Positions 58,764 to 62,041 of a stretch of 64,000 bases of DNA are shown here, piece after piece. The stretch spans positions 310,001 through 374,000 of the forward strand of contig NZ_FOYL01000005.1 in the NCBI RefSeq assembly GCF_900115955.1. Direction: 5' to 3'. The position numbers and the translations under genes are program-made. The notes under the pieces were generated by a model. That model was not told the origin of the DNA, made no database searches, and saw only the letters and a program-made list of their open reading frames with translations. Source of the DNA: Lentzea waywayandensis (GTDB taxonomy: Bacteria; Actinomycetota; Actinomycetes; Mycobacteriales; Pseudonocardiaceae). The stretch's first letter is position 1, and each line of letters begins with the position of its first letter.

Positions 58764-59119
58764 CGGGGACCTCCCAGGTGTTCACGAGCCGGTCCGGTGT
58801 TGAGCAGGACCACTCCGTAGATGTGCACGGCGGACAGCACACCGGACGCGACGCGGGCCCACGCCGGTCCGTCGGCGAGCACGATGACGAGGTGCAGCAG
58901 CGCCACGAGGACGAAGACGATCATCGCCGGGTAGTGCATGAAACGCAGCCGCAGCAACAGGGCCGCCGCCACCGGCAGTTCCACGACCGCGAGGAACGAC
59001 GGCAGCTTCAGCACGTCCGCGTCACCGGTCGAGCGCCACAGGATCAGCCCGACCACGAAGAACACCAGGGCGCCGCCGAACGCGACCGCCGAGGCGACCC
59101 GCACCTCGACGGGCTTCAT
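58760..59119 (-). CDS. Four-TM hypothetical membrane protein in the his operon
   Basis: 119-aa protein with four membrane segments (about 8-28, 42-60, 64-82, 86-104: [74 protein letters not shown]). It is embedded between hisF and hisI with 4-nt overlaps at both ends (ATGA and TTGA), so it is translated with them. No function known; similar small membrane proteins occur in actinobacterial his clusters. Confidence 0.82.
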
Positions 59120-59874
59120 CGCACCACGACACCCGCCTGGCGCAGGCCGTCCTTGACCTCGCCGATGCGCAGCTGCCCGAAGTGGAAGACGCTCGCGGCC
59201 AGCACGGCGTCCGCGCCCGCGGCGACGGCCGGCGGGAAGTGGTCGATCGCGCCGGCGCCACCGCTCGCGATCAGCGGCACGTCGACCTCGCGCCGCACCA
59301 GTTCGATGAGCTCGAGGTCGAACCCGGCCTTGGTGCCGTCGGCGTCCATCGAGTTCAGCAGGATCTCGCCGACGCCCAGCTCCTGGCCCTTCGCCGCCCA
59401 GGCGATGGCGTCGATGCCGGTGCCGGTGCGGCCGCCGTGCGTGGTGACCTCGAAGCCGGTGCCGCCGGGCACGCGCCGCGCGTCGACCGACAGCACGATG
59501 CACTGCGCGCCGTACCGCTCGGAGCACTCCTTGAGCAGCTCGGGACGTGCGATCGCGGCGGTGTTGAGGCTGACCTTGTCCGCGCCCGCGCGGAGCAGCT
59601 TGTTGACGTCCTCGGGGCTGCGCACGCCGCCACCGACCGTGAGGGGGATGAACACCTGCTCGGCGGTGCGGCGGACCACGTCGAACGTCGTCTCGCGGTC
59701 GCCACTGCTGGCCGTCACGTCGAGGAACGTCAGCTCGTCGGCGCCTTCGGCGTCGTAGGCCCTGGCCAGCTCTACCGGATCGCCCGCGTCGACGAGGTTG
59801 GTGAAGTTGACGCCCTTCACCACCCGGCCCCGGTCGACGTCGAGACAGGGGATGACACGGACCGCGACTGACAT
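59116..59874 (-). CDS. hisF: Imidazole glycerol phosphate synthase, cyclase subunit
   Basis: 252-aa TIM barrel that, with HisH-derived ammonia, closes the imidazole ring and releases AICAR. Catalytic Asp12 is in [17 protein letters not shown]; the second catalytic Asp is in [12 protein letters not shown]. Phosphate sites GGGVRS and [10 protein letters not shown] are present. ATG at 59874. The gene is separated from priA and hisH by the plus-strand F420/ClpN cassette at 59920-61344. Confidence 0.97.
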
Positions 59875-59919: not shown

Positions 59920-60300
59920 ATGATCACCGAACTCGGCGAAGGCAAGTACCTGCTGCTGACGACTTTCCGCAAGGACGGCACCCCGGTGCCCACGCCGGTC
60001 TGGGTCGTGCCGGGCGAGAGCGAGGGCGTGATCTACGCCTGGAGCGCCACGGACACCGGCAAGGTCAAGCGGATCCGGCGCAACGGTGACGTCGAGATCG
60101 GGCCGTGCGACGTCCGCGGCAACCCGAAGGGCGAGTCGGTCAAGGCCCACGCGGCGCTCGTCGACGACGACGCGAGCGATGACGTGCGGTCGCGGATCAC
60201 GAAGAAGTACGGGCTGTTCGGGTGGATCACCGTGGCCGGCAGCAAGCTGCGGCGCGGGCGGACCGGGTCGGTGGGCATCCGGATCACGGCGGCGAGCTGA
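59920..60300 (+). CDS. F420/flavin-dependent PPOX-class split-barrel protein
   Basis: 126-aa split-barrel flavoprotein related to the actinobacterial PPOX-class F420-dependent family (TIGR03666 type). Motifs: GEGKYLLLTTFRKDGTPVPTPVWVVP (about 6-31, split), the TGKVKRIRRNGDVEIGPCDVRGNPKG block (about 46-71, split) and a basic C-terminus with GRTGSVGIRI. Likely uses F420 or FMN in a reductase or sensor role; the substrate is unknown. Its stop is immediately followed by the palindrome array. Confidence 0.88.
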   Translation: MITELGEGKYLLLTTFRKDGTPVPTPVWVVPGESEGVIYAWSATDTGKVKRIRRNGDVEIGPCDVRGNPKGESVKAHAALVDDDASDDVRSRITKKYGLFGWITVAGSKLRRGRTGSVGIRITAAS

Positions 60301-60304
60301 CCGG

Positions 60305-60642
60305 TCGACGTCGAGTCAACGTTGCTCCGGCCGATCAACGTTGACGGCGCCGGTGCACGTTGACGGCGCCGGTCCACGTTGACGGCCGCCAGTCCACGTT
60401 GACTCAACGTGGACACCGCTGGATCAACGTTGACTGGGCACGCTCAACCCCGACGTGGGGGCTGCCCACGCGGATGACAACGTTGTCTTCCGCGCCTCCC
60501 CTGCACATTGACCCGGCACGTCAACGTTGATCCCCTCGCGTCAATGTTGACTCAACATGGATCAGATCCGTCAACATTGAGTCACCGTGGATGCGTCAAC
60601 CCGAGGTTGACCCGGCGCTCAGCGTCAACCTAGAGTTGACGC
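60305..60642. repeat. Array of about 18 phased TCAACGTTGA-type operators
   Basis: Palindrome copies (10-bp unit, consensus TCAACGTTGA) start at 60305, 60316, 60335, 60354, 60373, 60393, 60404, 60424, 60444 (weak), 60477, 60502, 60521, 60541, 60552, 60571 and 60582. Two wider ones follow: GTCAAC-N5-GTTGAC at 60595-60611 and GCGTCAAC-N5-GTTGACGC at 60622-60642. Three 10-mers are perfect (60335, 60424, 60521); most others differ by one or two bases. Centre-to-centre steps are mostly 11, 19 or 20 bp. The array fills the whole 342-bp gap upstream of the HTH-ClpN gene. Confidence 0.92.
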
Positions 60643-60643
60643 G
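60607..60643 (+). promoter_or_regulatory. Probable leaderless promoter of the HTH-ClpN gene
   Basis: -35 TTGACC (60607-60612), 18-bp spacer, -10 TAGAGT (60631-60636), then the GTG start at 60643, only 6 nt after the -10. No ribosome site exists, so transcription probably starts at or next to the start codon. The -35 lies in one wide palindrome and the -10 in the other, so a bound regulator would block RNA polymerase. Confidence 0.6.
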
Positions 60644-61344
60644 TGATCCAGTTGACCGACCTCATCGTCACCGTCGCCCAAGAGGCCGACGACGCGCTCG
60701 TGCGCCTGGCGAAGGCAGTCGAGCTGAGCGGTCAGCTCAACGAGCTCGGCGACCACCTGATCGGCCACTTCGTGGACGAGGCGCGCCGCGGCGGGGCGAG
60801 CTGGGCCGAGATCGGCGAGAGCCTCGGCGTGACGAAGCAGGCCGCGCAGAAGCGGTTCGTGCCCAGGGAGTCGCCGGAGCTGTCCAAGCCCTCGACGGAG
60901 CGCTACACCCAGCGGTCGCGCCGGGTGATCGCGCTGGCCCGGCACCACGCGCGGTTCAGCGAGCGGATCGGCACCGAGCACCTGCTGCTCGGGCTGCTCG
61001 ACGAGTCGGCGGGGCTCGCGGCCAAGACCATCGCGAAGCTGGAGTCGGGCGACGGCAGCACGCGCATCGCGACCCTGAACCGGCTCGACACCGAGGCCAA
61101 GCAACGGCCGGAGAAGCAGCCGTACACGACGCACTGCAAGAAGGCCCTCGAACTGGCCGTGCGCGAGGCGCTGCGGATGGGCCACATGTTCATCGGGACC
61201 GAGCACATCCTGCTCGGCGTCCTGCTCGAAGCGGATGGGACCGCGGCCGACGTGCTGCACAACACGGGTGTGACGCACGCGGCCGCGGCCGCTCACATAG
61301 AGACGGTGGTCAACGGACCGCAGCGAGTGCTTCCGGGAGCGTGA
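60643..61344 (+). CDS. HTH regulator with ClpC-type N-domain (ClpC2-like)
   Basis: 233-aa protein. Residues 1-50 form a helical segment ([24 protein letters not shown]). A helix-turn-helix lies at 53-72 ([20 protein letters not shown]). Two Clp N-terminal repeats follow, [17 protein letters not shown] (105-121) and [18 protein letters not shown] (181-198), the ClpC adaptor/antibiotic-binding fold. There is no AAA ATPase domain. Architecture matches mycobacterial ClpC2, reported to bind ClpC-targeting antibiotics and to repress its own promoter. The operator array directly upstream supports autoregulation. GTG start; leaderless. Its last 35 nt overlap the convergent priA. Confidence 0.9.
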
Positions 61345-62041
61345 AAGCGCCGGCGTACAGGGCCTTGCCGATGATGGAACCCTCCACGCCGTCGCGTGAC
61401 AGCTTCGCGAGCGCGACCAGGTCGTCCACAGTGGACACGCCGCCGGACGCGATCACCGGGGCGTCGGTGCGGGCGCAGACCTCGCGCAGCAGCTCCACGT
61501 TCGGGCCCGTCAGCGTGCCGTCCTTCGACACGTCGGTGACCACGTAACGCGTGCAGCCGTCGCGGTCGAGCCGGTCGAGGACCTCCCAGAGGTCGCCGCC
61601 GTCCGACGTCCAGCCGCGGCCCTTGACCCGGTGACCCTGCTCGGTGATGCGGACGTCGAGACCCACCGCGATCTTCTCGCCGTACGCGGCCAAAGCCTTG
61701 GCGCACCACTCCGGGTCTTCCAGCGCGGCCGTGCCGAGGTTCACGCGGGCGCAGCCGGTGGCCAGGGCGGCCTCGAGCGACGCGTCGTCGCGGATGCCGC
61801 CGGACAGCTCGACCTTCACGTCGAGCTCGCCGACGACGCGGGCGATCAGCTCGCGGTTGGAGCCACGGCCGAACGCCGCGTCGAGGTCGACGAGATGGAT
61901 CCACTCCGCCCCGTCGCGCTGCCACTGCAGGGCCGCGTCGAGCGGCTCGCCGTAGTTCGTCTCGGTACCGGCTTCGCCCTGCACGAGCCGGACGGCGCGA
62001 CCGTCGGCCACGTCAACAGCGGGGAGGAGTGTGAACGTCAC
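61310..62041 (-). CDS. priA: Bifunctional HisA/TrpF isomerase (PriA)
   Basis: 243-aa TIM barrel performing the Amadori isomerisation in both histidine (ProFAR) and tryptophan (PRA) synthesis in actinobacteria. Catalytic Asp10 ([15 protein letters not shown]) and the second Asp in [15 protein letters not shown] are present, as are phosphate sites [13 protein letters not shown] and [12 protein letters not shown]. No trpF is seen in the trp cluster, consistent with a bifunctional enzyme; sequence alone cannot prove dual activity. GTG at 62041 overlaps the stop of the upstream secreted-protein gene by 4 nt. Confidence 0.95.

Follow-up and report, generated by a model that had tools for sequence, protein, structure and literature searches.

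ClpC2 acts as both sensor and sponge for cyclomarin, an antibiotic directed at ClpC1, and how its operators work is being studied in mycobacteria. According to the available text of Taylor et al. 2023 (PMC10030653), mycobacterial ClpC2 represses its own gene through the motif CGTCAAC-n5-GTTGACG, cyclomarin A relieves this autorepression, and in many species two operator copies lie over the -35 and -10 elements of a promoter taken as leaderless. The same text gives an N-terminal structure spanning residues 4–72 after proteolysis in the drop, a double mutant of the C-terminal helix in which clpC2 expression rises 2.0-fold in cells, and two conserved phenylalanines, F96 and F172 of the M. tuberculosis protein, that contact cyclomarin. 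In M. tuberculosis, ClpC2 is induced by cyclomarin and not by ecumicin or ilamycin (accessible part of PMC12913811, 2026), which points to a narrow inducer range. The helix-turn-helix (HTH) of ClpC2 type is also found fused to DUF3887 and DUF2812 (PMC13284704, available portion).

Here we describe a clpC2 locus in a 64,000-nt stretch of Lentzea waywayandensis DNA (the window), where the published operator pair is preceded by a long row of small palindromes. The gap upstream of the gene represents an enlarged clpC2 control region with a known core and a new extension: the operators O1 and O2 are published, the 10-bp array is new. The features of the locus are the following.

59920–60300, plus strand: F420-dependent PPOX-class oxidoreductase gene (TIGR03666), upstream neighbour
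60305–60591, unstranded: array of 10-bp palindromes, TCAACGTTGA and variants
Array site starts (n=16): 60305, 60316, 60335, 60354, 60373, 60393, 60404, 60424, 60444, 60477, 60502, 60521, 60541, 60552, 60571, 60582
60330–60403, unstranded: 19-bp tandem repeat covering part of the array, 3.8 copies, 89% match
60392–60414, unstranded: 23-bp palindrome except for the centre base, two sites 11 bp apart
60474–60487, plus strand: element ATGACAACGTTGTC, distinct from the array sites
60541–60561, unstranded: promoter-near 11-bp doublet, at -54/-43 from O2
60595–60611, unstranded: operator O2, GTCAACCCGAGGTTGAC, on the -35, matching the published ClpC2 operator
60607–60612, plus strand: predicted -35, TTGACC
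60624–60640, unstranded: operator O1, GTCAACCTAGAGTTGAC, on the -10, matching the published ClpC2 operator
60631–60636, plus strand: predicted -10, TAGAGT
60643–61344, plus strand: clpC2, encoding an HTH domain and then two Clp_N repeats
60802–60858, plus strand: helix-turn-helix of ClpC2, residues 54–72, with second helix 65–72 (KQAAQKRF)

The clpC2 gene and its core operators

The 233-aa product combines an N-terminal helical domain with two Clp_N repeats (PF02861, E 2.1e-18) and stops after Clp_N, with AAA domains absent. Its Clp_N part is best matched by ClpC1 and ClpC N-domains (best E 3.1e-27), and is matched less closely by C-terminal chains of M. tuberculosis ClpC2 (9p2p, E 4.3e-20; 8ad9, E 6.5e-19). 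The ClpC2 N-terminal chain 8ada aligns with residues 2–63 (E 1.8e-13) and the RelI antitoxin chain 9sdc with residues 40–76 (E 2.9e-4). Judged by these matches, the gene at 60643 is a clpC2 orthologue. In the predicted model (mean pLDDT 87.8), helices 54–61 and 65–72 form a helix-turn-helix, and residues K65, Q66, A67, K70 and R71 are invariant across 29 sequences. Since the 8ada match ends at about residue 63 here, short of the second helix, this motif would be a better candidate for reading DNA than the C-terminal helix mutated by Taylor et al. Both cyclomarin-contact phenylalanines are apparently replaced by tyrosine (Y88, Y161) in the Lentzea alignment, read by eye with the M. tuberculosis sequence outside it. 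The PPOX gene and clpC2 are flanked by hisF-like (59116–59874, minus strand) and hisA-like (61310–62041, minus strand) genes, again by eye.

The two wide palindromes, which an earlier sequence-only reading had placed on the -35 and the -10, have the form GTCAAC-N5-GTTGAC and, by their sequence, are the already known ClpC2 operator pair. O1 ends two nucleotides before the GTG, and O2 lies 29 bp upstream. With 18 bp between TTGACC and TAGAGT, transcription is predicted to start at about the GTG at 60643, that is, leaderless. The sequence-only reading, which saw one small regulator behind the array and proposed a cooperative filament-like or titration switch, is partly supported: the gene belongs to an autorepressor family, ClpC2, and has that family's published operator pair. 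O1 and O2 are present in all 40 clpC2 promoters collected by protein search (the window and Lentzea, Saccharothrix, Umezawaea, Actinosynnema and one Gordonia bin), 28 or 29 bp apart and exact in 78 of the 80 copies. More broadly, an exact operator pair was found in 260 of 390 family genomes, as a single pair in all but five; a reversed control of the pair had no match among the 390.

Four genomes (G237, G244, G246 and G248) have a second operator pair of ClpC2 type, placed before a gene for an erythromycin-esterase family protein (PF05139, E 2e-41 to 3e-50). These genes are located at L222:475–1704 (minus), L219:1532–2782 (plus), L218:285–1499 (minus) and L221:167–1510 (minus), and start 2–3 nt after O1 in three cases and 8 nt after it in L221. 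The association holds for all four two-pair genomes that were fetched, the fifth, G245, standing outside this count. ClpC2-type operators at esterase genes, seen in a handful of genomes from two genus codes, suggest a sensor-plus-hydrolase response.

Composition, register and distribution of the array

The 294-bp gap upstream of the 60643 gene contains 16 non-overlapping copies of TCAACGTTGA (at most three mismatches). Together with the two wide palindromes, they account for the "about 18" operators of the sequence-only reading, whose site centres and coordinates were correct; the spacings of 11, 19 and 20 bp that it saw almost throughout make up 13 of the 15. Between 60301 and 60642, TCAACGTTGA is matched 3 times exactly, 9 times with at most one mismatch and 15 times with at most two, the fifteenth match lying within the wide palindrome at 60624 and not in the array proper. 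Dinucleotide shuffles of the same interval (1000) gave mean counts of 0.0, 0.02 and 0.28 and maxima of 0, 1 and 3, respectively. The block at 60392–60414, taken for a perfect 23-bp palindrome, is indeed a palindrome made of two sites, but its centre base is an exception. An exact N5 operator is absent from the window array, whose sites have spacer 0 and relaxed half-sites.

Across species, 134 array sites yield the consensus RTCAACGTTGAY, in a logo that counts the ACAACGTTGT element as a two-mismatch site. This 12-mer behaves as a unit, with a mismatch tolerance that is two-fold symmetric. Neighbouring sites are spaced by 19 (60), 11 (36) or 20 bp (21) in 117 of 173 cases, and relative to O2 they recur at -12, -23, -42, -53, -72, -91 and -107. 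The full set appears only in L093 (with -106 for -107); the registers of the window and L094 are 1–2 bp off, with the -107 element of the window at -118, that of L087 is 1–3 bp off, and those of L080 and L113 are different. In L084 and L085 the whole block is displaced by 11 and 21 bp, equivalent to one and two turns. Most arrays have the promoter-near doublet at -53/-42 relative to O2, or at most 2 bp off.

The sequence-only reading proposed that all sites face a similar side of the DNA. Between neighbours this is supported, since they are phased beyond chance: over the 14 arrays the mean cosine at 10.5 bp is 0.455, compared with 0.094 for random placement (sd 0.064, maximum of 500 placements 0.292), and at 10.0 bp the phasing is stronger (0.578). 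Half-sites in the same orientation are separated by close to whole turns (11, 19–20, 30 bp), those in opposite orientation by close to half turns. Along the whole array, however, the proposal does not hold. The window array has its best period at about 9.9 bp (R 0.74), 10.5 bp being poorer (R 0.46), and the best-fit period, each time chosen among many, falls below 10.0 bp in 12 of the 14 arrays, so that on 10.5-bp DNA the faces of the sites would drift.

Sites are more conserved than the sequence between them. In figures that are somewhat generous, because the sites were picked with the consensus and the alignment program is biased towards repeated motifs, an ungapped comparison of six genomes gave 72.5% identity in site columns versus 50.6% in spacer columns (1 of 91 circular shifts of the mask scored higher), and leave-one-out comparisons gave 83% versus 56% with five arrays (30 of 30 comparisons, non-independent) and 88% versus 52% with three (3 of 3). 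On the same scale, third codon positions of clpC2 are 83% identical in the six genomes. As judged from these alignments, array sites, their spacings and their distance to O2 are preserved in many species.

The array is present in 14 of 24 Lentzea genomes, with 3 to 11 sites (at most one mismatch) within 450 bp before O2; the other ten have 0 or 1 such site. It was found in none of 67 non-Lentzea loci, a sample of 50 operator pairs and 17 clpC2 loci whose two sets have at least one genome in common (L115, L155). The 50 pairs, from 18 genus codes, contain no site with at most one mismatch, and seven of them a single two-mismatch match; they were chosen by exact operator match, which leaves promoters with diverged operators unsampled, and one stands before an esterase gene, not clpC2. 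From the PPOX stop to O2 there are 122–424 bp in the 14 arrayed loci and 1–13 bp in the eight measurable array-less ones (3 Lentzea, 5 Saccharothrix). On a tree of 24 tips (13 arrayed, 11 not, two of the array-less being Saccharothrix), array presence takes at least four state changes, and the close relatives L077 and L078 have arrays of 139 and 371 bp. In ClpC2 itself, only residue 144, in the Clp_N part, has different majority states in the 13 arrayed and the 8 array-less species compared, a weak difference. An array absent or unaligned in close relatives had been named in advance as evidence for chance or an unrelated repeat. Among arrayed Lentzea we found it aligned and in register, but it is absent from ten Lentzea genomes and from the non-Lentzea loci, and thus not needed for ClpC2 autoregulation. 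By this survey the array is a new, Lentzea-only addition upstream of the known operators.

One element within the array is of a different kind. Of the 14 arrays, 12 retain ACAACGTTGT: in 11 it takes the form ATGACAACGTTGTC, and in L080 it is inverted. Each Lentzea genome contains between 1 and 7 matches to the 14-mer ATGACAACGTTGTC on the two strands together, and in 14 of 20 fetched regions it forms, by eye, the start of a LacI-like gene. Six Lentzea genomes have two copies in inverted orientation, separated by about 2.85 kb; in both pairs that were read, a LacI-like gene begins at one of the copies. The element may be a separate operator.

Candidate readers of the array

Our leading guess, a tentative one, is that ClpC2 itself would read the array by docking and titration, given that the half-sites of the array (RTCAAC, core TC.A) are a looser version of the GTCAAC that its own operators contain. 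Among 272 array half-sites, the positions T, C and A (1, 2 and 4) are fixed in 98%, position 3 is A in 182, C in 49, G in 39 and T in 2, position 0 is G in 136, and position 5 varies. In the operators, GTCAAC varies only twice in 160 half-sites, with positions 0 and 3 fixed in all 160. Speaking for ClpC2, the largest clusters seen stand at the clpC2 promoter, locked to its operator. Mechanistically, ClpC2 would dock weakly at each array site, and the row of sites, phased to O2, would hold the protein near the promoter and tie up free ClpC2, producing deep repression at rest. A ligand (cyclomarin or the like, or an unfolded protein) would then remove ClpC2 from the DNA, and repression would collapse steeply. 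Tandem duplication of units roughly two helical turns long probably contributed to the growth of the arrays, which selection would then have trimmed.

The variation at positions 0 and 3, which are invariant in the operators, speaks against ClpC2, and so does the geometry of the sites. Array half-sites abut, 6 bp or about half a turn apart, versus 10–11 bp in ClpC2-type operators, so a dimer built for the latter should not span an array site. In addition, 10 of the 24 Lentzea genomes manage without the array, site clusters occur elsewhere, only residue 144 of ClpC2 differs with array presence, and the inducer range seen in M. tuberculosis is narrow. The HTH family of ClpC2 does preserve the GTCAAC half-site while its spacer changes, from N5 in ClpC2 to N4 in a split paralogue and perhaps N0 here, which makes a further geometry conceivable. 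We also considered a rather improbable arrangement in which ClpC2 subunits would line up in two antiparallel rows, one on each face of the DNA, and bind cooperatively with O2 and O1; it is suggested by the near-whole-turn distances of half-sites in the same orientation and the near-half-turn distances of opposite ones. If true, a drug-sensing autorepressor would become an all-or-none switch, whose steepness evolves through sites gained or lost in steps of helical turns.

Nearly as likely as ClpC2 is another reader, a dimeric regulator unrelated to it that would recognise RTCAACGTTGAY as a whole site, have clusters at several Lentzea loci and provide a second input to clpC2 in the arrayed species. 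The unit character and two-fold symmetry of the 12-mer agree with such a protein, and so does its occurrence away from clpC2, where exact TCAACNTTGA pairs 11–21 bp apart are found in 23 of 24 Lentzea genomes but in none of 37 from elsewhere in the family. Counts of perfect 12-mers per genome range from 3 to 11 across 13 Lentzea and from 0 to 5 across 17 other genomes. The pair TCAACATTGATTCCATCAACRTTGA is shared by 22 of the 24 Lentzea genomes; the copy in the window genome is situated upstream of citrate synthase, next to a divergent frame opening with an HTH. In G011, whose own clpC2 promoter is array-less, the locus L128 (G011:C1, about 162182–162295) has six TCAACGTTGA-type sites within 150 bp of non-coding DNA that is open in no frame and follows a reading frame resembling, by eye, a transporter. 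Doublets at 11 bp also occur away from clpC2 in G007, G018 and G022, four sites lie near a convergent gene pair in L010, L015 has four as well, and the conserved ATGACAACGTTGTC within the array also starts a LacI-like gene.

These occurrences are less dense than those at clpC2. Around such sites 41 loci were fetched, with 7–9 sites per 150 bp in the five that have the clpC2 operator pair versus 1–6 in the other 36. Several copies are coding (PKS-like linkers in L011, L014 and L015, by eye; a ferredoxin-reductase-like ORF in L018) and may be coincidence, with spacings there mostly of 15, 19, 25 and 40. The half-site, furthermore, equals that of clpC2's own product. A LacI-type reader is retained only within this alternative. 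Central CpG is common in LacI-family sites, and the array 12-mer has one; as reader of the whole array, however, a LacI-family protein was rejected, with the central CpG missing from 52 of 136 array sites.

At L009:3257–3321, the gap between citrate synthase (PF00285) and the divergent HTH frame contains TCAACATTGA, TCAACGTTGA and TCCATGTTGA, with the 15-bp pair present in 22 of 24 Lentzea genomes. L011, L014 and L015 (G000 contigs C20 and C25) have TCAACATTGA-type sites 15, 25 and 40 bp apart in PKS-linker-like coding sequence (...SMLTALGQVHVDGINVDW...), with a local GC of 0.56–0.60. Pfam and NCBIfam searches of plus-strand ORFs around the L014 sites had no hits; the real genes seem to lie on the other strand, where by eye they read like PKS modules. 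Gene calls based on GC3 were unreliable, with wrong frames in L009 and L014.

The split paralogue offers a third reader. A second ClpC2-type HTH (E 1.8e-5 to 4.8e-5) is present in 23 of 24 Lentzea genomes, and in the 13 loci read it is a separate 69-aa HTH gene with twin GTCAAC-N4-GTTGAC operators. These were found in 13 of 14 fetched loci, 27 bp apart and with the ATG 3 nt after the second; in the three loci inspected, the HTH gene overlaps a stand-alone Clp_N gene (174 or 175 aa).

L224, 1029–1235 and 1238–1759, both plus strand: split ClpC2 paralogue
L225–L234, L236 and L237: split-paralogue HTH gene and operators likewise, with one N4-operator half-site deviating in L236

The fourteenth locus, L235 (G002:C198), encodes a longer ClpC2-type HTH protein with a different C-terminal part and GTCAAG/GTCAAC-N5 half-sites just upstream; among the HTH hits beyond these, it is the only one read. 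That the 69-aa protein, alone or with ClpC2, reads the array and links two Clp_N sponge genes seems to us improbable. The near-universal presence of this HTH in Lentzea and the changing spacer of its family speak for it, but its own operators have spacer 4, not 0, and the paralogue occurs both with and without arrays, so that the distribution of the array is left unexplained.

It is likewise improbable that the array is a functionless minisatellite grown between PPOX and clpC2, as the 19-bp tandem repeat over part of it, the lengths of 122 to 424 bp (139 versus 371 bp in L077 and L078) and the four or more state changes might suggest, since sites are kept where spacers diverge (a footprint somewhat overstated), distances to O2 are common to species and the spacings are phased beyond chance.

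Comparison with known systems

BldC-type regulators form oligomers along DNA and read variable numbers of phased direct repeats. The Lentzea arrays resemble theirs in phasing and in variable repeat number, but protein family and motif differ, the Lentzea sites being palindromic. The sequence-only reading knew of no described system with this many phased sites on one gene; this stands for the array, as far as the literature was searched, but not for the core operators, which were already published. In the portions of the papers retrieved, no array of this kind is described; seven papers from one search contain neither the term "operator array" nor "erythromycin esterase", and one of the seven, PMC12339860, mentions Lentzea and ClpC2 two times each.

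RelI and related ClpC2-type HTH proteins have their HTH in common with the window ClpC2 (PMC13284704). Unlike clpC2 of Lentzea, RelI is an antitoxin, for which the available part of that paper gives no operator or array. Our survey adds that one HTH family retains the GTCAAC half-site while the spacer differs (N5, N4, perhaps N0).

The closest system is mycobacterial ClpC2 (Rv2667, PMC10030653), which is like that of Lentzea in protein architecture, in the operator pair over the -35 and -10 and in the predicted leaderless start. One or two operators and no upstream array are described in the available text of that study, whereas Lentzea adds up to 20 relaxed spacer-0 sites.

The general idea that extra sites alter the behaviour of a regulator is shared with decoy-site titration of autorepressors (PMC7505660 and PMC8797265, as far as their text was available), where simulations and synthetic circuits were used; the Lentzea array, in contrast, is natural. 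The genus thus provides a natural promoter series in which the number of extra sites runs from 0 to 20 while the loci are otherwise alike, and in which the effect of site number on the threshold and steepness of an autorepressor is directly testable.
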